Translations under genes and position numbers: made by a program
Notes under the pieces: generated by a model
What the model saw: only the letters and a program-made list of their open reading frames with translations
Databases searched by the model: none
Told to the model about the DNA's origin: nothing
Assembly: GCF_040529045.1 (NCBI RefSeq)
Contig: NZ_CP131914.1
Span: 1,162,501 to 1,226,500, forward strand
Reading direction: 5' to 3'
Source: Xanthomonas indica
GTDB taxonomy: Bacteria > Pseudomonadota > Gammaproteobacteria > Xanthomonadales > Xanthomonadaceae
DNA length: 64,000 bases
Shown: piece after piece, positions 1-9,276 of the stretch
Position numbering within the stretch: position 1 is the stretch's first letter
Layout of the letters: each line of letters begins with the position of its first letter

Positions 1-441
1 GGATCGAGGCCGGCAACAAGCCGGCTCGAGTGGCGGTAATCTTCAATCCCTCATCTTGTCTACCGTGGCTGCGTGACAGTGCACGGCAGGCAGAGCGATG
101 ATGTGACTCTCGTCACTCTGGTCAAAGCCATCTACACATAATCCTCAGGCATGCCGACCTGAAGAGGTAATGGCTATGCATTAAGCCGTCGTATCTAGAA
201 AGTGAGAAGCGCTGCTCGTGAAGTATCGGTGTGTGCGCCGACGCGCGAGACGCCCACTGGCGGGTAGTCTGAGTGGTGAAGCGATTGCGCTGCGTCTGGC
301 TGGCTGGGTGGGTGGGAAAGTCGTTGATCCGTTGCGATCTAATGTAGTTGCCTATGTGGATATGAGGCTGACAGATTGATCAAGTGTTAAGAGATTGATT
401 CCGAGGAGAGCGGATAAGCCAGGGTTTTAGACGAAGCGGTA
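1..441. other. gene-free left edge
   Basis: No convincing reading frame is visible on either strand. The first 40 bases contain a GC-rich inverted repeat (GCCGGC, ACAA, GCCGGC) that may close a gene lying left of the window. The rest becomes AT-richer towards the cassette that follows, which suggests the island boundary lies within or just left of this stretch. Confidence 0.5.
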
Positions 442-477
442 AAGAGGGGCGGCACAAGCTGCTCTTTTATTATTTTT
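442..477 (+). terminator. Rho-independent terminator-like hairpin
   Basis: A stem of about ten pairs, several of them G-U, with loop ACAA is formed by 444-453 and 458-467 and is followed by a T-rich run (TTTTATTATTTTT). It sits 13 bases before the GTG of the PIN gene, so it could end upstream transcription or act as an attenuator for the cassette. Confidence 0.5.
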
Positions 478-489
478 CATGGGGGCGTA

Positions 490-1923
490 GTGAGAAATCA
501 ATTTCCTGGCTATTACCAGTTAACGCCGGAAGAGTTTAAAGCTCTTTGGCGCGACGCCAAGATAGTATTGGATACAAATGTACTGCTCTATGCCTACAAA
601 ACTCCAAGCCAAGGACGAGAAGCCTTGCTTCAACTTCTTGAGAAACTTAAGGGTAGGATTTGGGTGCCATATCAGGTTGCTATGGAGTTTCAGGTTAATA
701 GGCTTGGAGTTATTGCAGCTGAAAAGAAAAGGATGGATTCTGCTCTGAAAGCGAGCGAAACAGCGCTTGGCGAGATACTCGAAAGCTTGAAGTCATTGGA
801 TCTTGATGCTCGAGAGATTGGCGTGGATGTAGGCGCTCTTCATCGTGATATTGAGACTGCGAGAGGGAGCATCGCGGATGCTCTAAATAAAGCAAAAAGT
901 TCCCAGCCTAACGTTACACATGATGATCCTATCAGAACTAGGATTGACGCAGTACTTGAGGGGGCAGTGGGGTCTGCACCTAAGGATCAGCAGACTCTGG
1001 ATGACGCGTATGAGAGGTGCAAGAGGCGTTATGAATTGCCAATGCCTCCTGGATTTAAGGATGTTGGAAAAAGCATAGAAATAAAAGGCGATGAATACTT
1101 GGTTGATGGAATTAAGTATCAGCGGCAATATGCCGACGCTTTGCTTTGGCTTCAAACACTAGACTTCGTAAAAGCACTTGATGCAAAAGACGTGATTTTT
1201 GTAACTATGGATGTGAAGGAGGATTGGTGGCTTAGGAAGGATGGTATGACTATCGGCCCACACCCAGAGTTGGTAGCTGAAATCAGCAGGATTGGAGGAG
1301 TAGAGCGATTTTGGATGTACACTCTTCCAAAGTTTCTCGAGCAATCTACAAATTATCTTCAGACCTCCCTTTCTGCGCGTGCATTAGAAGAGGTGAATGA
1401 AGTGGCAGTTCGTCAAGCCGCCGTACAACTTCCGATTGAAAGGCAGGTCTTTGGTGGGGCGCGTAGCGATCAATATGGGCGTATGTTTGATTCTGCTGCA
1501 GAAGTTGCCGTGCTTGACTGGCTAATTTCTCAAGGAATAGATGCAGTTCCTAGCGGAAGTCTATTCCCAGATTTGCTAGTACATGACTCAACTGGTCAAT
1601 ATGGCGTTGAAGTTATGCGAATTAGCTCCTTCCCATTGAAGCAAAATAGGCTTCACGTCAAGCTTATTGAGGCGGAGACGTCTGTTAGACGAGGCCGCTT
1701 CGCGTCGGTGACACTAATTCTTGTGGGCGCTTCCGAGCTGATGAAGATGGTTGAAGGGGTGGATGAGTTTTTCCAGACTGAGATATATAGGCCCTTGAAG
1801 AGATTAAGTGAGCTGATGAGGCACGTTGGCATTATCTTTGGTTACGTAGATTCGGGTAATTTTATACAAGTATGCAATCTTGCTCCCGTCTCTTCTTCGG
1901 CCTCTCCATTACATAATATTTGA
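490..1923 (+). CDS. PIN-like nuclease with possible PD-(D/E)XK C-terminal domain
   Basis: First gene of an AT-rich cassette, 477 aa from a GTG preceded by GGGGG. Residues 20-290 resemble the PIN_8/DUF4935 PIN-like family: LDTNVLL (Asp28), an acidic Glu66 in AMEFQ, Asp216 in QYADALLW, and VTMDVKEDWW (Asp241, Glu244, Asp245). PIN domains are metal-dependent ribonucleases. A helical insert (about 80-190) separates the first two acidic clusters, as is usual for this family. After residue 325 a second alpha/beta region carries Glu338, FPDLLV (Asp361) and GVEVMR (Glu374), which looks like a PD-(D/E)XK restriction-type core, but the usual lysine is replaced (EVM), so activity there is uncertain. Cytoplasmic, no membrane segment. 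An antiviral or RNA-processing role is inferred from context only. Confidence 0.75.
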   Translation: MRNQFPGYYQLTPEEFKALWRDAKIVLDTNVLLYAYKTPSQGREALLQLLEKLKGRIWVPYQVAMEFQVNRLGVIAAEKKRMDSALKASETALGEILESLKSLDLDAREIGVDVGALHRDIETARGSIADALNKAKSSQPNVTHDDPIRTRIDAVLEGAVGSAPKDQQTLDDAYERCKRRYELPMPPGFKDVGKSIEIKGDEYLVDGIKYQRQYADALLWLQTLDFVKALDAKDVIFVTMDVKEDWWLRKDGMTIGPHPELVAEISRIGGVERFWMYTLPKFLEQSTNYLQTSLSARALEEVNEVAVRQAAVQLPIERQVFGGARSDQYGRMFDSAAEVAVLDWLISQGIDAVPSGSLFPDLLVHDSTGQYGVEVMRISSFPLKQNRLHVKLIEAETSVRRGRFASVTLILVGASELMKMVEGVDEFFQTEIYRPLKRLSELMRHVGIIFGYVDSGNFIQVCNLAPVSSSASPLHNI

Positions 1924-2062
1924 AGTAATTTATATTTTATTAATTAGGTGGCGCCGTGCGGGTTTATATTCTTGGCGTGTGATGTTGAGTAGGCGCCCTT
2001 TCGAAGATTAAAGCGGTGCCTAAAAGCTTTTCTATTAAGATAAATAGCTTAAGGAGAAAATT

Positions 2063-2923
2063 GTGACCCTGTTTCAGCTCGTTAAGGCAACGCTAGACGT
2101 TCTGTACGGTGAGGCAAAAAGAATATATGGAAATGAAACGGATGTTCGAATCAGTAACGCAATGGCGCAATTGTCGGCTGCTTACACGAATCTTCTATCT
2201 CGGAGCCGCGTTCCGATCAACTATCAGGATCCTGTGATTCGATTTGCATATGTTTATAAGTATGTGGCAGCGCATGGGGACTATGTGTACCAGTCAATCG
2301 AGTTACTTCATGAGAGGGCTGGTGGTCCGTTTCTCCCTAATCGCCTGAGATTGACATGCATTGGTGGTGGTCCTGGTAGTGACCTCATTGCGATGCTGAA
2401 ATTTCTTTCAGACTCTAGTGGAATGGAAGTGGAGAAGGTTACTTGTTACCTCATTGATGGTGAACAAGCTTGGGCAGACACCTGGACAGAGCTTGACGAC
2501 GCTTTCGAACTGCCATTTAGACTTAGCACAAATTTTCAGCGAATAGACGTTGCTCAGCCTGGCTCATGGGTGGATCAACGGAAATTCTTAGACGCAGATA
2601 TATTTACTATTAGCTACTTTGTTTCAGAGGTCATGTCGCTTGACCAGACCGGAGCTGTAACGGATTTCTGGAAAACTGTTTTTGCAAATGCGAAGTCTGG
2701 TGCCCTCTTTTGCTACATCGATAATGGAGCAGATGTTTTCAATGATTATTTTGATAATATTTGGAAGGCCAGCGGGCTGCAACCAGTGATCACCCACGAT
2801 AACGTTAGGATGCTTCCAAGATACGACGAGGAAAAGGGTCATCTAGGAGAATTTCTTGGGAAATTTGGCCAGCAGCCGAAATTGCAATCAATAGTTAGCA
2901 TTCGAATACTGCATAAGCCATGA
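2063..2923 (+). CDS. predicted SAM-dependent methyltransferase of unknown substrate
   Basis: 286 aa from a GTG placed six bases after a clear AAGGAG (2051-2056). Residues 96-112 (RLTCIGGGPGSD) form a Rossmann-type glycine loop typical of SAM binding. Asp132 lies at the end of the next strand, where the ribose-binding acidic residue usually is, and ISYFVSEV (about 183-190) is a plausible motif IV strand. The first 90 residues are helical. I do not recognise the exact family or substrate. The last four bases overlap the AlkB start (ATGA), so the two are translationally coupled. Base composition is AT-rich like its neighbours and unlike the bulk of the window. The 139-base gap before it is also AT-rich, so an internal promoter is possible. 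Confidence 0.65.
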   Translation: MTLFQLVKATLDVLYGEAKRIYGNETDVRISNAMAQLSAAYTNLLSRSRVPINYQDPVIRFAYVYKYVAAHGDYVYQSIELLHERAGGPFLPNRLRLTCIGGGPGSDLIAMLKFLSDSSGMEVEKVTCYLIDGEQAWADTWTELDDAFELPFRLSTNFQRIDVAQPGSWVDQRKFLDADIFTISYFVSEVMSLDQTGAVTDFWKTVFANAKSGALFCYIDNGADVFNDYFDNIWKASGLQPVITHDNVRMLPRYDEEKGHLGEFLGKFGQQPKLQSIVSIRILHKP

Positions 2924-3534
2924 GTGATCTATTTGAATCCAAGAATGGCAATATTCACTTGCCGGTCGAAGGGGCTGAAATTTTACTTATAAAGGATTTT
3001 TTGACTGAAACAGATGCTAGTATGCTCTTTGAGACTCTGTTGGCCGGCACTAATTGGCGGCAAGAATCAGTGGTTGTTTGGGGGAAAAGTCATCAACAAC
3101 CCCGCCTAGTGGCCTGGATGGGAGATCATTCATATACTTATTCGGGTCTTTTACTGCGGCCAGAACCATGGGCTGAAGACCTTAAGTCTGTTAAGGCAAA
3201 GATTGAGCTCGAAGCTGGCTCAAATTTCAACAGTGCTCTTCTGAATCTATACCGAAACGGTCTTGATCGAATGGCCGCTCACAGTGACGACGAAGTTGAA
3301 CTCGGGCCCCGTCCGATAATTGCTTCCCTAAGCTTGGGGGCAACACGAAGAATCCGTTTTTTGCCTAAGAATAAGAATTCAATATATAAAGCCTTTTCTC
3401 TGGATCTGCCTAACGGTTGTCTACTTCTAATGAAGGGGGAGACGCAGAAGAACTGGTTGCACGAAATTCCAAAGGAGTCAAAGCTCATAAATCCGCGGAT
3501 TAACATAACTTTTAGGAAGGTGAGGCCGTGGTGA
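2920..3534 (+). CDS. AlkB-family 2-oxoglutarate/Fe(II) dioxygenase
   Basis: 204 aa, start ATG overlapping the upstream stop. All AlkB catalytic residues are present: HSDDE gives the iron ligands His121 and Asp123, WLHEIPK gives the third ligand His181, and PRINITFR carries the 2-oxoglutarate-binding Arg193 and Arg199. NLYRNG (109-114) matches the NxYxxG strand typical of AlkB and ALKBH2/3. Known members oxidatively remove methyl groups from alkylated DNA or RNA bases. Length is normal for the family. Coupling to a methyltransferase and a PIN nuclease is unusual, since ordinary alkB sits with ada-type repair genes. That suggests a dedicated nucleic-acid modification, erasure and cleavage function, which is inference. 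It may equally be a horizontally acquired repair gene. Confidence 0.88.
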   Translation: MSDLFESKNGNIHLPVEGAEILLIKDFLTETDASMLFETLLAGTNWRQESVVVWGKSHQQPRLVAWMGDHSYTYSGLLLRPEPWAEDLKSVKAKIELEAGSNFNSALLNLYRNGLDRMAAHSDDEVELGPRPIIASLSLGATRRIRFLPKNKNSIYKAFSLDLPNGCLLLMKGETQKNWLHEIPKESKLINPRINITFRKVRPW

Positions 3535-3560
3535 GTTGATTTATTTTGAAGAGTGTAGAC

Positions 3561-3876
3561 CAGAAAGTGCACTCCCTTTATGTAAGTTTGACCTTAAGAA
3601 ATTGGTGGATCGCGTAGGGTTCGTTGTAACGGCCGCGCCGGCCTTGCTTGCCTTGGGTGCGGGCCTTGAACAGGAATCAGCGCGCACTTTCTGACACAGT
3701 GTGATTCTGCAGCAGTCCCTGATCGGTCGGCATACACAATCCTCAAATTCACTGATGCTAGAAGGGGACTACAGCGGCCATACTCCGAGCGTTGCGATGC
3801 TTCTTCGCCCACGGAAAGCACGCTTTGATCGGGGAAACAAGGGTCAGGGGGAACAAGGGTCAGAGTGCGCTTTCCT
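3561..3876. repeat. short element flanked by imperfect inverted repeats
   Basis: The left end (3561-3574, CAGAAAGTGCACTC) is nearly the reverse complement of the right end (3862-3876). A third copy of the arm lies at about 3682-3693. Just inside the right end two copies of GGGGAACAAGGGTCAG stand in tandem (about 3831-3847 and 3848-3863), the first with one extra A. No transposase is encoded inside. GGGTCAGAGTGCNCTTTC-type ends accompany REP-associated transposase remnants in this bacterial group, from memory. It marks the right border of the AT-rich cassette. Confidence 0.45.
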
Positions 3877-3928
3877 GTAGTGCTATTGGCCTTCACAGCT
3901 TAGTCAATTGCGTACTGGAGAAAGCACT

Positions 3929-4438
3929 GTGCTCAGTCTAGAAAGTCCGCGCTGGTCCGAGCTTCAGCACGCCTATGGCACAGCAGGCGATATCCCAGCG
4001 CTGTTGGGGCTGCTACAGACGGTGCCTTCATCCGAGGATGGATCGGAACCGTGGCTCACCTTGTGGAGCGCGCTTGCGCATCAGGGCGACGTCTATTCGG
4101 CTTCCTTCGCCGCCGTGCCGCATGTCGTCCATGCATTGGCACGTGCACCCGAAAAGGCCGATCACGGGTACTTCCAGTTCCCTGCCTGGGTCGAGATCTG
4201 CCGCGCGAAAAGCCAGGTCGAGATCCCCGAGGATCTTCGGGCCGCCTACGTGCATTCCCTCGCTCAACTCCCCTCCTTGGTTGCGGCTGCGTCCTCTCGC
4301 GCCTGGGACCCGGAGTTTCTTGCCTGCGCTCTAGCCGCGGTCGCCGCGGCGAAGGGGCAGTACGCGGTCGCGGAGGCCGTCCTTGAGCTCACGTCCGACG
4401 TCGCCGAGGAGTTCATGGAGTGGTTCTTGACGCGGTGA
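3929..4438 (+). CDS. small conserved-looking protein, possibly immunity-like
   Basis: 169 aa. I prefer the GTG at 3929 because GGAG (3917-3920) lies eight bases upstream; the same frame also opens at a TTG at 3908. The protein is cytoplasmic and mostly helical, with Trp/His-rich motifs near the N-terminus (SPRWSELQHAYG, LWSALAHQGDVYSASFAAVP) and alanine-rich helices later, resembling short HEAT-like repeat proteins. Similar sequences, as I recall them, occur as orphan or immunity-type genes near polymorphic toxins, but no toxin partner adjoins it here. Base composition is back to the high GC of the chromosome. Function unknown. Confidence 0.6.
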   Translation: MLSLESPRWSELQHAYGTAGDIPALLGLLQTVPSSEDGSEPWLTLWSALAHQGDVYSASFAAVPHVVHALARAPEKADHGYFQFPAWVEICRAKSQVEIPEDLRAAYVHSLAQLPSLVAAASSRAWDPEFLACALAAVAAAKGQYAVAEAVLELTSDVAEEFMEWFLTR

Positions 4439-6171: not shown

Positions 6172-8355
6172 CTACGCGTGGCGCACCGTAGCATGTTGCT
6201 CTTGGCCGCGTTGCTGCTCTTGAACCTGCGCCTGCGCGTGTTCTTGTGCCAGACGTTGATTGACCACTTCAAGTTGAGCGAAGCTCTCTTGCACAGGCCG
6301 TTGCGCTGCTTCCACAGTCGGCATGTGCGCATACAACTTCGCAGGGTCTTTCAAGTCGCCCTGGACGACGATGAGGTTCTGTGCATCTGGCAGTTTGGGA
6401 GTCTTTTCACTCAGCAAGACGTGATCAACGCGGGTCAGTCCATTGTCCTTGGCTAGCGTGAGAAGGCTCGCTGTCATGCGCTCGCTGGTTGCGTCGAAGC
6501 TTCGGCCGTTTCGCTGGTCGATCTCTGCAACCTTGGTCTTGATCTGCTCATGTAGGGCATAGTCCGCATGGACCGGCATTGCAGGAGAAAGAGCGCCGCG
6601 GTCGCCGGGCACGCTTGGCAAGCGTTCTTGCGCCCGCTCGGCTGGCGTCATCCACTTCTCGATCTGGGGAGTCCCTTTCAACTCACCCGAAATGGGGTCC
6701 CGCTCGATGTTGACGCGCGCCCACTTGGTGTCGACATTGAGTCGCTGTGTAGCGACGTCAAAGTGCTCATCCAGGATTCTCTCGGCGGTAGCCTTGGCCT
6801 GCTCTTCCCACATGTTCTGCGGCGCCCAGTGGCCACGCTCGTTGACGGCTAGCTGGAGACGAGAGGTGATCAAGGGTTCTGGATTGCCGAATTGCTCTCT
6901 GGCGATGCCTTTGACCGAGGCTTTGATCTCGAAGATTTCCCAACGCTCGCTGGTTGGGTTGAACGCGGCGATGTCGTTGCCATGCCCGGAGTTGTTCTGA
7001 ATTGGAACCAGGTCACGGTAGCCGCCACGCGCCAGATCGTGGGACACGATTGCTTCGCCGATATCACCTATCTCTTTCGTGCCAAGCGAAGAAAGCTCTC
7101 GTGAGCCGATCGATTTGGTAAGGGCTTGATGAAAAGACACGCCGCCATCGAACATGGTGACATCGTGTCTGGCCAGATATCCCAATTCTTTTGGTGCCAG
7201 TGCGCCGCTTTGCAGTAAGCCATTGAGATCGCCGGACTTGCGTAGCCCTTCGACGAGTTCTCGTAGTTCGCCCTGGCTGCGCTTCATGCCAGCCAGGCCG
7301 CTGAACATCAGATCGGCGCCGCCTTGTTCCAGTGGCGAGCGCCCCTGGACGCGACGGGCGTCCCGGGCAAGCTCGATCAGTTCCTCCGCCAACTCTCCTG
7401 CTGCGTGCCGCTCGACGCGGCCAGCCACGCGTCCCGCGGCTGGCGCTAAATCGTCTGCGATGTCGGCGGCCTCGGCGACCTTGGCCAGCTTCGTGAGCTT
7501 GGTGGCAGGAACAAACGTGGCGATGATCTCGACGGCCGCTGCGCCTTTGGCTTCGCCCAGATACTCCTGTTCCTTGCCCTCTCGGGTTGCTTTCTCTAAT
7601 CCGGCTTCCCACTCGTTCCAGGCGCCAACGGCGGCTCTGGAAATGTCGTTGAAGGGTTTACTGGGGTCGTGATACGCATCTGAGGCATAGATGGCGGCAG
7701 CGCCGATCACGAGATTTCGGAAATTTGTGTCGGTACCAAACCGGTGCGCGAATTTGGCCAGATCGACCGTCTCGCCAATCATGTTCAGCCCATGACCGGT
7801 GGCGCCCTTCATAGCCCCGTAGTACTCCTGGGCATTGTCGCTACCGCGCGCAGCAAGCTCTCCTGCGGCGCGTTCCAGGTAGTCGTTCGATGGGTTGTTC
7901 TTTGCGCCTTCTGCCCATTGTCTTGCGGCGACCAGGTTGTCGCTGATCTGCTTGTCCGTCCATGCAATGCCGTCGCTCGCCGCTTGCGTCACACGGGTAG
8001 CGGCGGTTTGCAGTGGGGCCTGGACGTAATCCTCGAAGCCGCGTTCAATCCATGATTCGTTGACATTCGCCTTGTCCAGCGCGTCGGCGAGCCGTGCGGC
8101 GTCTGGCGAAGGTAGCCGGCGCGTGATGGCATCGATCAGTGGCCCGACCTGGGCTTGGCCTTCCGGAGTGGCATAAGCAGGGGACGCGGTCAGGTCCGCT
8201 ACCAATCCTCGCGCATCCAGTCCATCAACTGATTGATGAAGAAGGATGAGGCGCTGGGCCTGATAAGCCGTTAGATCCACATGACCATTGGCGTCTGTCG
8301 CCTGGGCCAAGGCAACGAGATCAGCGGTGCGACCAGCGTGCGGCGTATCGTTCAT
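6172..8355 (-). CDS. X-T4SS antibacterial effector with XVIPCD and PD-(D/E)XK nuclease motif
   Basis: 727 aa. The C-terminus (about 596-727) is a typical XVIPCD: HADYALHEQIKTKV, then SFDATSERMTASLLTLAKD, VDHVLLSEKT, LIVVQGDLKDPA, AHMPTVEAA, and a Gln-rich tail. That domain is known to bind VirD4 and direct toxins into the Xanthomonas type IV secretion system for delivery into rival bacteria. Residues 425-480 contain LGTKEIGDIGEAIV (Glu434), GHGNDIAAF (Asp461) and WEIFEIKAS (Glu476, Lys478), the D-(x)n-E-x-K arrangement of PD-(D/E)XK nucleases, so DNA cleavage is the likely toxic activity (inferred). Residues 190-310 include small hydrophobic helices as in other such effectors. AAAGGA precedes the ATG. 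It follows its probable immunity gene by 24 bases. No T4SS genes lie in this window. Confidence 0.9.
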   Translation of the reverse strand: MNDTPHAGRTADLVALAQATDANGHVDLTAYQAQRLILLHQSVDGLDARGLVADLTASPAYATPEGQAQVGPLIDAITRRLPSPDAARLADALDKANVNESWIERGFEDYVQAPLQTAATRVTQAASDGIAWTDKQISDNLVAARQWAEGAKNNPSNDYLERAAGELAARGSDNAQEYYGAMKGATGHGLNMIGETVDLAKFAHRFGTDTNFRNLVIGAAAIYASDAYHDPSKPFNDISRAAVGAWNEWEAGLEKATREGKEQEYLGEAKGAAAVEIIATFVPATKLTKLAKVAEAADIADDLAPAAGRVAGRVERHAAGELAEELIELARDARRVQGRSPLEQGGADLMFSGLAGMKRSQGELRELVEGLRKSGDLNGLLQSGALAPKELGYLARHDVTMFDGGVSFHQALTKSIGSRELSSLGTKEIGDIGEAIVSHDLARGGYRDLVPIQNNSGHGNDIAAFNPTSERWEIFEIKASVKGIAREQFGNPEPLITSRLQLAVNERGHWAPQNMWEEQAKATAERILDEHFDVATQRLNVDTKWARVNIERDPISGELKGTPQIEKWMTPAERAQERLPSVPGDRGALSPAMPVHADYALHEQIKTKVAEIDQRNGRSFDATSERMTASLLTLAKDNGLTRVDHVLLSEKTPKLPDAQNLIVVQGDLKDPAKLYAHMPTVEAAQRPVQESFAQLEVVNQRLAQEHAQAQVQEQQRGQEQHATVRHA

Positions 8356-8379: not shown

Positions 8380-9276
8380 TCAACGGAAAAGCGGATAGTC
8401 TTGTTTGAGGCGTGCCTCGACGGCGGCAGCCAGCGGATGTGGTGCGACTGGAGGCAGATCACGGACGATCGCCCACGGCGCATCGACCAGAAGGTGGCCA
8501 GTCTCGAACTCAGGCTGGCCGTCCCTGCGGCGGAGTGCTTGTATGGCCAGCAGCTCACCAGGGAAAAGGCGATCGATATCGCGGTCAAACTCGTAAAATG
8601 TCGATCCGGTACTGTGCTTGCTTCGGCTGATGTGGAACTCGGAAGCGCCTTGCATCGCATTGGTGAAGGTGGCTTCGTCCGTGGTTTTCCAATGATCCAG
8701 CAGCGATCGATACGCTGCGATCACGGGTTTTTGTGGGGCGAAGTCCGTAGGTATGCCAAAGGCATCGGAGAAAAGTAAGGCCAAGAACGCATCGTTCGTG
8801 CCCTCGGCCAGGCGGCGGGACTGCGGAAGCGTGTTGATGCGCTGATCCTTTTCCGCCATTTCCAGGAAGCGCTGGCTACAGATCCTGGCTTCCTCCCACC
8901 ACGACAGCATGGTCGGGCCAACGGCCTTCATGCTGTCCCAGAATTGGGTCGGCCAATTTCCGATGTCGGGATGCATCTCGCTATGCATGCCGTGCCATCG
9001 GAACACCAACGCCCGAAGCGCGACGGACCATTGCAGAAAGCGGGCGAGGTCAGCCGTATTGGAGCGGAAATATGCATCGCAGGCGGCGACATTGAAGTAG
9101 TGGCCTATCCGATCCAATTGGGTTGCAGCCTTGGGATCAAGCGGGCCAGGCGTTGCAAGAAACTTCTCGATGGCGGCAGCGTAGCGATCATAGTCGCCCG
9201 TCTTTCGAACGTGCTCCATCCACTCCCCGCATTCCTGCGAAAGCTTCTTCAGCGAGGGATGGAACGGCAGCGCCAT
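8380..9276 (-). CDS. probable cognate immunity protein for the adjacent effector
   Basis: 298 aa, cytoplasmic, no signal peptide, mostly helical and rich in Trp, Phe and acidic residues. It is not a family I can name. It lies directly upstream of the XVIPCD effector, same strand, 24-base gap, so immunity is translated before the toxin, the usual X-Tfi/X-Tfe order. Lack of a signal peptide fits neutralising a nuclease in the cytoplasm, unlike the periplasmic lipoprotein immunities that guard against peptidoglycan-attacking effectors. AGGA lies about ten bases before the ATG, and a candidate -10 (TAGAAT on the minus strand) lies near 9305. Immunity function is inferred from position. Confidence 0.75.
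   Translation of the reverse strand: MALPFHPSLKKLSQECGEWMEHVRKTGDYDRYAAAIEKFLATPGPLDPKAATQLDRIGHYFNVAACDAYFRSNTADLARFLQWSVALRALVFRWHGMHSEMHPDIGNWPTQFWDSMKAVGPTMLSWWEEARICSQRFLEMAEKDQRINTLPQSRRLAEGTNDAFLALLFSDAFGIPTDFAPQKPVIAAYRSLLDHWKTTDEATFTNAMQGASEFHISRSKHSTGSTFYEFDRDIDRLFPGELLAIQALRRRDGQPEFETGHLLVDAPWAIVRDLPPVAPHPLAAAVEARLKQDYPLFR

Follow-up and report, generated by a model that had tools for sequence, protein, structure and literature searches.

The 64,000-nucleotide stretch of the Xanthomonas indica genome analysed here (contig NZ_CP131914.1, forward strand, positions 1,162,501 to 1,226,500; hereafter the window) carries near its left end a cassette of three genes, encoding a PIN_8 protein, a methyltransferase (MT, the putative writer) and an AlkB-type Fe(II)/2-oxoglutarate dioxygenase (the putative eraser). 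A preliminary description of this DNA had singled out the three genes by their base use, and this is borne out by G+C contents of 45.7, 45.2 and 45.0% for the PIN, MT and AlkB genes, respectively, against 69.4% for window positions 9001 to 64000; the host genome is one contig of 4.81 Mb. The coupling of MT and AlkB by an ATGA, also pointed out then, was found again, and the four-base overlap of MT stop and AlkB start is present in four loci altogether, namely the window, L045 and L092 (ATG start) and L094 (GTG start), L and G numbers standing for the loci and genomes compared. The PIN gene is separated from the MT gene by 139 bases. Since it is found on plasmids and phage-like DNA as well as in chromosomal islands of distantly related bacteria, the MT-AlkB pair is suggested to constitute an undescribed writer-eraser system for bacterial conflict. 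The coordinates are collected in Table 1.

Table 1. Coordinates of the cassette genes and of the slot in which they lie.
Feature	Window position	Strand	Remarks
PIN_8 protein gene	490-1923	+	477 aa; open reading frame open; Pfam PIN_8 1e-50
SAM-dependent (S-adenosylmethionine) methyltransferase (MT, 'writer') gene	2063-2923	+	286 aa; motif I CIGGGPGSD; Methyltransf_34-like, predicted Rsm22/METTL17-like fold
AlkB-type Fe(II)/2-oxoglutarate dioxygenase ('eraser') gene	2920-3534	+	204 aa; ALKBH3/ALKBH2-like
ATGA overlap, MT stop/AlkB start	2920-2923	+	read from sequence
Variable slot (defence hotspot)	1-3850, beginning about 143 bases before the window (presumed aceE 3' end)		contains PIN, MT, AlkB; flank homology
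First conserved gene rightward of slot	3908-4438	+	flank homology from 3850-3887 in four genomes

The AlkB protein belongs to the family 2OG-FeII_Oxy_2 (PF13532), which it matches at 2.2e-32 with 113.3 bits (cut-off 31.2), and it contains the HxD...H iron ligands and the RxxxxxR motif for 2-oxoglutarate (HSDD; WLHEI...PRINITFR), in agreement with the full set of AlkB residues reported earlier. The AlkB family profile matches ALKBH3 at 1.1e-60, and every one of its 16 matches to solved structures at E ≤ 1e-5 is ALKBH3 or ALKBH2. The AlkB families are repair enzymes, the ALKBH3/2-like members acting on nucleic acid; judged by its sequence, the window protein probably removes a methyl group from nucleic acid. 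Two AlkB copies were found in this genome, the other (G000:C1:1403243) being 43% identical and grouping with the AlkB of Xanthomonas melonis in a quick tree. In this tree of 110 AlkBs, of whose 105 inner branches 50 fall below the drawing threshold, the label of having an MT partner requires 15 changes, and none of 500 shuffles gave a value as low (L135, with a broken MT, was counted as partnered; L081, L043, and L039 as solo). The partnered AlkBs are hence clustered, though a single clade of them was not found.

The methyltransferase is less readily placed. It matches Methyltransf_34 (PF11312) at E 2e-5 with 24.4 bits, slightly below the 26-bit Pfam cut-off; a homologue in L094, 53% identical to it, exceeds the cut-off with 30.9 bits, and four of the six members of alignment A1 match the family at E ≤ 0.1. 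Its Rossmann methyltransferase fold and glycine motif I, the SAM loop already recognised in the preliminary description, identify it as a class I SAM methyltransferase. When its predicted model was compared by VIA-align, Rsm22/METTL17 was the top match, aligning over nearly the full length, N-terminal helices included, at an identity of about 12%, the MT being shorter; an Rsm22/METTL17-like fold is predicted on this basis. The Pfam Rsm22 family (PF09243) gave no match to the window MT at E ≤ 1, and among the MTs scanned it matches only that of the distant locus L169, with 15.9 bits (cut-off 23). The enzyme probably methylates a nucleic acid. PADLOC 2.0.0 returned no strong match for it (best 0.04). 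By eye, some MTs bear a probable membrane segment and a coiled coil, at the N-terminus in L046 (10557-11948) and L081 (2791-4131) and at the C-terminus in L069 (2299-3774).

The recurrence of MT beside AlkB was examined from both sides. Searched with the MT, cyanobacterial genomes gave matches in 13 of 291, at 14 places, of which 12 hold a full-length MT, and AlkB adjoins 11 of these 12; the other two are G667, where a broken MT stands next to an intact AlkB, and G712, with a fragment of the MT. Four of the 12 were previously known (G588:C2, identical with L046; G792, identical with L038; G649; and G716); at the eight new places AlkB adjoins the MT in seven, the exception being G802. All 12 plasmid records obtained from MT-first searches have AlkB adjoining the MT; the search with the window-type MT contributed two of two, and that with the Planktothrix MT eight of eight judged by coordinates, its own record and six from Synechocystis included. 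Among Burkholderiales, the MT was found in four of 399 genomes, with AlkB in G589 (a known starting genome) and G1275 (new), and with the domain DUF1848 (PF08902) in place of AlkB beside two distant MTs. The AlkB-first sample comprised 80 genome loci, out of at least 532 confirmed relatives, together with 12 loci on viral contigs; this MT adjoins AlkB in nine of the 92, and a tenth carries another MT, by which the notion that every AlkB of this type has an MT is ruled out. The order of the two genes varies between MT-AlkB and AlkB-MT. No MT match was obtained in the INPHARED phage records, no DNA match in E. coli, and none in plasmids when the distant L169 MT served as query; IMG/VR searched from the MT yielded only two contigs. 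By eye, the pair lies next to tail-fibre-like or Mu-like head genes in the viral contigs L092 and L094, and phages may carry it too.

Several of the pairs lie near genes associated with defence or mobility. HmaB and HmaC stand next to the AlkB-MT pair of Picosynechococcus, a type I methylase is found nearby in Nostoc, and the pair of Synechocystis PCC 6803 (SGL_RS01085/SGL_RS01090) is carried by plasmid pSYSA about 5-7 kb from cas2, cas1, csx18, and cas10. In L134, the pair is flanked on one side by a protein matching kinase-type PADLOC models and on the other by a UvrD helicase; in Ideonella (L045), a helix-turn-helix (HTH) gene precedes the MT, with integrase and HipA-like genes recognised nearby by eye. 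In a Burkholderiales locus (L168, 884-3815), MT-AlkB is immediately preceded by a gene for a protein kinase.

Leftward of the cassette lies a long gene which we take to be aceE, and a query spanning the 3' end of this gene and the bases behind it matches 20 of 20 genus genomes searched. Apart from this genome, the homology ends with the gene in 14 of 19 and continues for 110-350 bases in five; the right flank matches nine of the 20, this genome included. The slot between the flanks (L123 11646-14360 as well as window 1-3850) was retrieved from 12 of these 19. Ten of the 12 contain AT-rich inserts unlike this cassette, one of them in a genome of the same species, and L162 and L164 show no such insert within the 8 kb fetched; no match to MT, AlkB, PIN, or DUF1848 was found in the 12 slots at E 1e-3. 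Ten proteins from eight slots, one or two from each, were submitted to PADLOC (L158 and L165 being left out), and seven of the eight slots match known or candidate anti-phage families, namely ThsB; type II MTase; NsnA with dCTPase; PDC-S60; RT_UG5-nitrilase; PDC-S25; and Drt3b, the L157 slot alone giving no match. Because other AT-rich inserts in the slot match anti-phage families, the cassette is placed in a defence hotspot of the chromosome. A chromosomal housekeeping pair was rejected as a candidate: the MT occurs in one of 199 relatives and one of 398 phylum genomes drawn as an even sample, in both cases only this genome. The earlier proposal of a probable methyl writer and eraser forming a coupled pair within a foreign, defence-associated cassette is supported.

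On the plasmids of Synechocystis PCC 7338 (L135) and PCC 7339 (L166), the MT has suffered an identical deletion of its middle part; AlkB is intact in the former and interrupted near its end in the latter. Only 33 matching MT residues are left next to the intact AlkB of L043, and no MT was found in L039, while its near relative L031 has one. As to a toxin-antitoxin module, in which one gene persists only alongside its partner, the observations are mixed: the genes are linked and borne on plasmids and the order of loss in Synechocystis fits, while four MTs lack AlkB nearby, DUF1848 being present there. In one lineage, moreover, the MT domain has been replaced beside the same AlkB by a different methyltransferase (MT2, the window type being MT1): in L081 the N-terminal part of the Tychonema MT is retained, with 67% identity across 160 residues, and is followed by a different MT, called Rossmann-type by eye from its motif and from weak Pfam Methyltransf_31/23 matches of a Moraxella relative, and G748 shares this architecture. 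Profile comparison of MT1 and MT2 by hhalign gave a probability of 11% and an E-value of 0.0028. MT2 adjoins AlkB on two plasmids of a single Moraxella osloensis strain, where a viperin gene is found at a distance of about 3 kb. In G778, it is two genes away from AlkB, and a UvrD-like helicase and a 2CompART protein belong to the same row. In L151 (6619-12880), MT2 forms a row with AlkB, a UvrD-like helicase, and a 2CompART protein, DUF1848 being located on the other side; this arrangement is possibly a larger version of the system. Weak MT2 matches in G687, G771, and G849 (E 4e-4 to 9e-4), whose short flanks hold neither AlkB nor DUF1848, were not counted.

DUF1848 was first noticed near several MTs and then scanned for in the same loci. 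Eight distinct loci have it next to or near MT1 or MT2, as against none of 87 AlkB loci without either MT; the Fisher p of 1e-5, from 31 hand-counted loci with intact MT, is a guide only, the loci being non-random and the idea having come from the same data. DUF1848 stands beside each of the four intact MTs that have no AlkB in their vicinity (G802, G748, G1265, and G1129; for the last three within the stretch examined, 3 kb in G1129), and all eight MT-linked DUF1848 proteins contain CX3CX2C, the radical-SAM cysteine pattern. Distant MT relatives with DUF1848 as partner are seen in L169 (1276-3140) and L170 (404-2473), with no AlkB in the stretch examined.

Taken as a whole, the MT-AlkB pair is probably a genuine conflict module of some kind. 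The fuller reading, put forward tentatively, is that the pair is a functional unit and a mobile writer-eraser conflict module, most likely directed against phages, in which a toxic RNA methyltransferase is held in check by its eraser. The MT would methylate the base-pairing face of a nucleotide in an RNA of the host translation machinery (rRNA or tRNA) and halt translation, and the translationally coupled AlkB would strip the mark oxidatively as an enzymatic antitoxin, leaving uninfected cells unharmed. Infection would tip the balance so that the mark accumulates and the cell is arrested ahead of phage production; DUF1848 may take or join the role of eraser in some relatives, and PIN would be a nuclease gene of its own, independent of the pair with which it shares the slot. 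A broader form of this proposal, considerably more doubtful, envisages a conflict system based on reversible base methylation, in which a toxic RNA MT whose catalytic domains can be exchanged (two types differing in sequence and, in some cases, borne on a stalk of probable membrane hairpin and coiled coil) would be paired with either AlkB or a radical-SAM-like DUF1848 eraser; if true, the function of DUF1848 would be nucleic-acid demethylation or base repair.

A number of observations weigh against the toxic writer with its eraser. What has been observed is the pairing and coupling of the two genes, their occurrence on mobile replicons and in distant phyla, the hotspot position, the loss of the MT with retention of AlkB, and the exchange of the MT domain; the RNA substrate, the toxicity, the removal of this mark by AlkB, the role of DUF1848, the trigger, and the defence against phages are inferred. 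Foldseek E-values place BioC and METTL6 ahead of METTL17 (rank 6), and the METTL17/Rsm22 proteins are mitoribosome assembly factors that are themselves of doubtful methylation activity, for which reason the fold of the MT says little on its chemistry. The four MTs lacking AlkB nearby, of which that of G802 has none anywhere in its genome, imply that AlkB can be dispensed with in some cases, unless its place is taken by DUF1848. DUF1848 itself occurs mostly without this MT: one of six DUF1848 plasmid records, a Planktothrix plasmid, has it near an MT, four (L174-L177) have no MT within about 3 kb, and the remaining one is the Methanosphaera record in another version. In G712 (L125), which was excluded from the full-length count, an MT fragment is fused to TPR repeats with neither partner adjoining and AlkB 2.6 Mb away. 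AlkB, too, occurs mostly without this MT, 82 of the 92 loci having none in the stretch examined; in L031 and L051, MT and AlkB are encoded on opposite strands; both IMG/VR contigs, already part of the query alignment, give no independent support; and some cyanobacterial chromosomal copies have no defence gene recognised by eye.

Other explanations must be weighed against this proposal. An unlikely one is that the MT places replication-blocking lesions on phage nucleic acid while AlkB shields the DNA and RNA of the host; the profile match to ALKBH3/2-like repair enzymes agrees with it, and it fits the defence context and the MT-AlkB pairing equally well, whereas the fold and the weak family similarity favour rRNA-linked methyltransferases and no separate target-recognition part was seen by eye in the 286-residue MT. 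It is rather improbable that the two enzymes act in succession, AlkB hydroxylating the nucleoside that the MT has methylated so as to produce a complex mark, as ALKBH8 does on tRNA: the tight coupling and frequent pairing would suit such a pathway, while the restriction of the solved-structure matches to ALKBH3 and ALKBH2, the survival of AlkB after loss of the MT, and the sharing of one AlkB kind by two MT types speak against it. The RNA-repair unit of the preliminary description remains a rival. No likelier than the two-step pathway is ordinary alkylation repair, with the MT incidental or regulatory. The repair role of the AlkB families and the 82 loci without such an MT are in its favour; set against these are the MT-first searches, in which almost all full-length MTs have AlkB or DUF1848 as a neighbour, the second AlkB in this genome, and the hotspot placement of the pair. 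That the MT methylates host rRNA as protection from toxins, antibiotics, or phage factors, with AlkB resetting the mark, appears quite improbable, since the retention of AlkB after MT loss and the exchange of MT types are not readily explained by it, even though the fold is Rsm22/METTL17-like and resistance-giving rRNA methylases are well known. Self/non-self marking with PIN as the cutter, the earlier proposal, to which the adjacency and common composition of the three genes here had lent some colour, is largely refuted and highly improbable, as it loses its nuclease: PIN was not convincingly found beside any of the other MT loci scanned, and here it stands 139 bases away from the MT.

The refuting observation named in the preliminary description, that the genes do not occur together elsewhere, holds for PIN as far as scanned but not for MT and AlkB, and a three-gene module with PIN as the cutter is not supported. 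Homologues of the PIN protein exist on 59 plasmid records. A scan of 141 loci, however, found it only in the stretches of this genome and in L010, a locus retrieved on account of its PIN gene; it is not present in L168-L170 (L148-L151 lay outside the scan) or in the 99 other genomes scanned, and the viral contigs scanned hold no relative. A Rhizobium PIN homologue used as query gave one weak match (E 0.0034, a 97-codon open stretch) in L033/L139, which are the same place, about 3 kb from the MT-AlkB pair; it was taken as chance. PIN was hence rejected as a member of the system, and is probably a separate nuclease gene sharing the slot. PADLOC 2.0.0 gave no strong match for it (best 0.0067), and its predicted structure (pLDDT 33.7) was not used. 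Its C-terminal region reads PD..EVM, against PD..EVK in the Rhizobium homologue, and by eye may be a degenerate PD-(D/E)XK-like site or relic.

With restriction-modification, the cassette shares a methyl mark with a nuclease nearby; unlike there, what is conserved together with the MT is an eraser and not the nuclease. If the tentative writer-eraser reading is right, the closer likeness is to the DarTG toxin-antitoxin system, in which one enzyme likewise modifies nucleic acid and a linked enzyme reverses the modification; DarTG uses ADP-ribose and a macrodomain, in place of a methyl group and its oxidative (or radical-SAM) removal, and we know of no family common to the two. In ALKBH8, an AlkB and a methyltransferase work together as they may here, but they belong to other families, are fused as domains, and serve sequential synthesis rather than erasing. 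Bmt6, a 25S rRNA m3U enzyme, represents the Methyltransf_34 proteins that have the SAM-binding half in common with this MT, which, unlike them, is bacterial, mobile, and paired with AlkB. Finally, CARF_2OG of PADLOC, a type III CRISPR accessory, is matched by AlkB at 2.9e-34 in its dioxygenase half, the match spanning only profile positions 193-350 of 353 and leaving the CARF half unmatched.

The preliminary description knew of no named system with this gene order, and neither such a system nor a description of the MT-AlkB pair was found in the open-access literature among the matches listed. A passage of PMC7824862 notes sporadic AlkB in jumbo phages as possibly resetting methyl marks, and PMC8868631 treats, in the part concerned, AlkB origins, ALKBH2/3 included. 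The Synechocystis pSYSA papers searched yielded no passage on AlkB or slr7095-slr7098, nor on slr7094 in the first of them and on a methyltransferase in the second; the old tags of the pair are guessed to lie in this range. If the proposal holds, reversible methylation, applied by bacteria to their own RNA or DNA, would serve as a switch in conflicts with phages, oxidative demethylation being the antidote, which would help to explain the extra AlkB genes on bacterial plasmids and give DUF1848 a testable role; owing to the pair on pSYSA, the question is directly approachable in Synechocystis PCC 6803.

Further along the window, on the reverse strand, positions 6172-8355 encode a protein that ends in an XVIPCD (X-Tfes) region, by which effectors of type IV secretion directed at the killing of competing bacteria are marked, and the adjacent gene on the same strand (8380-9276) may encode its immunity partner.

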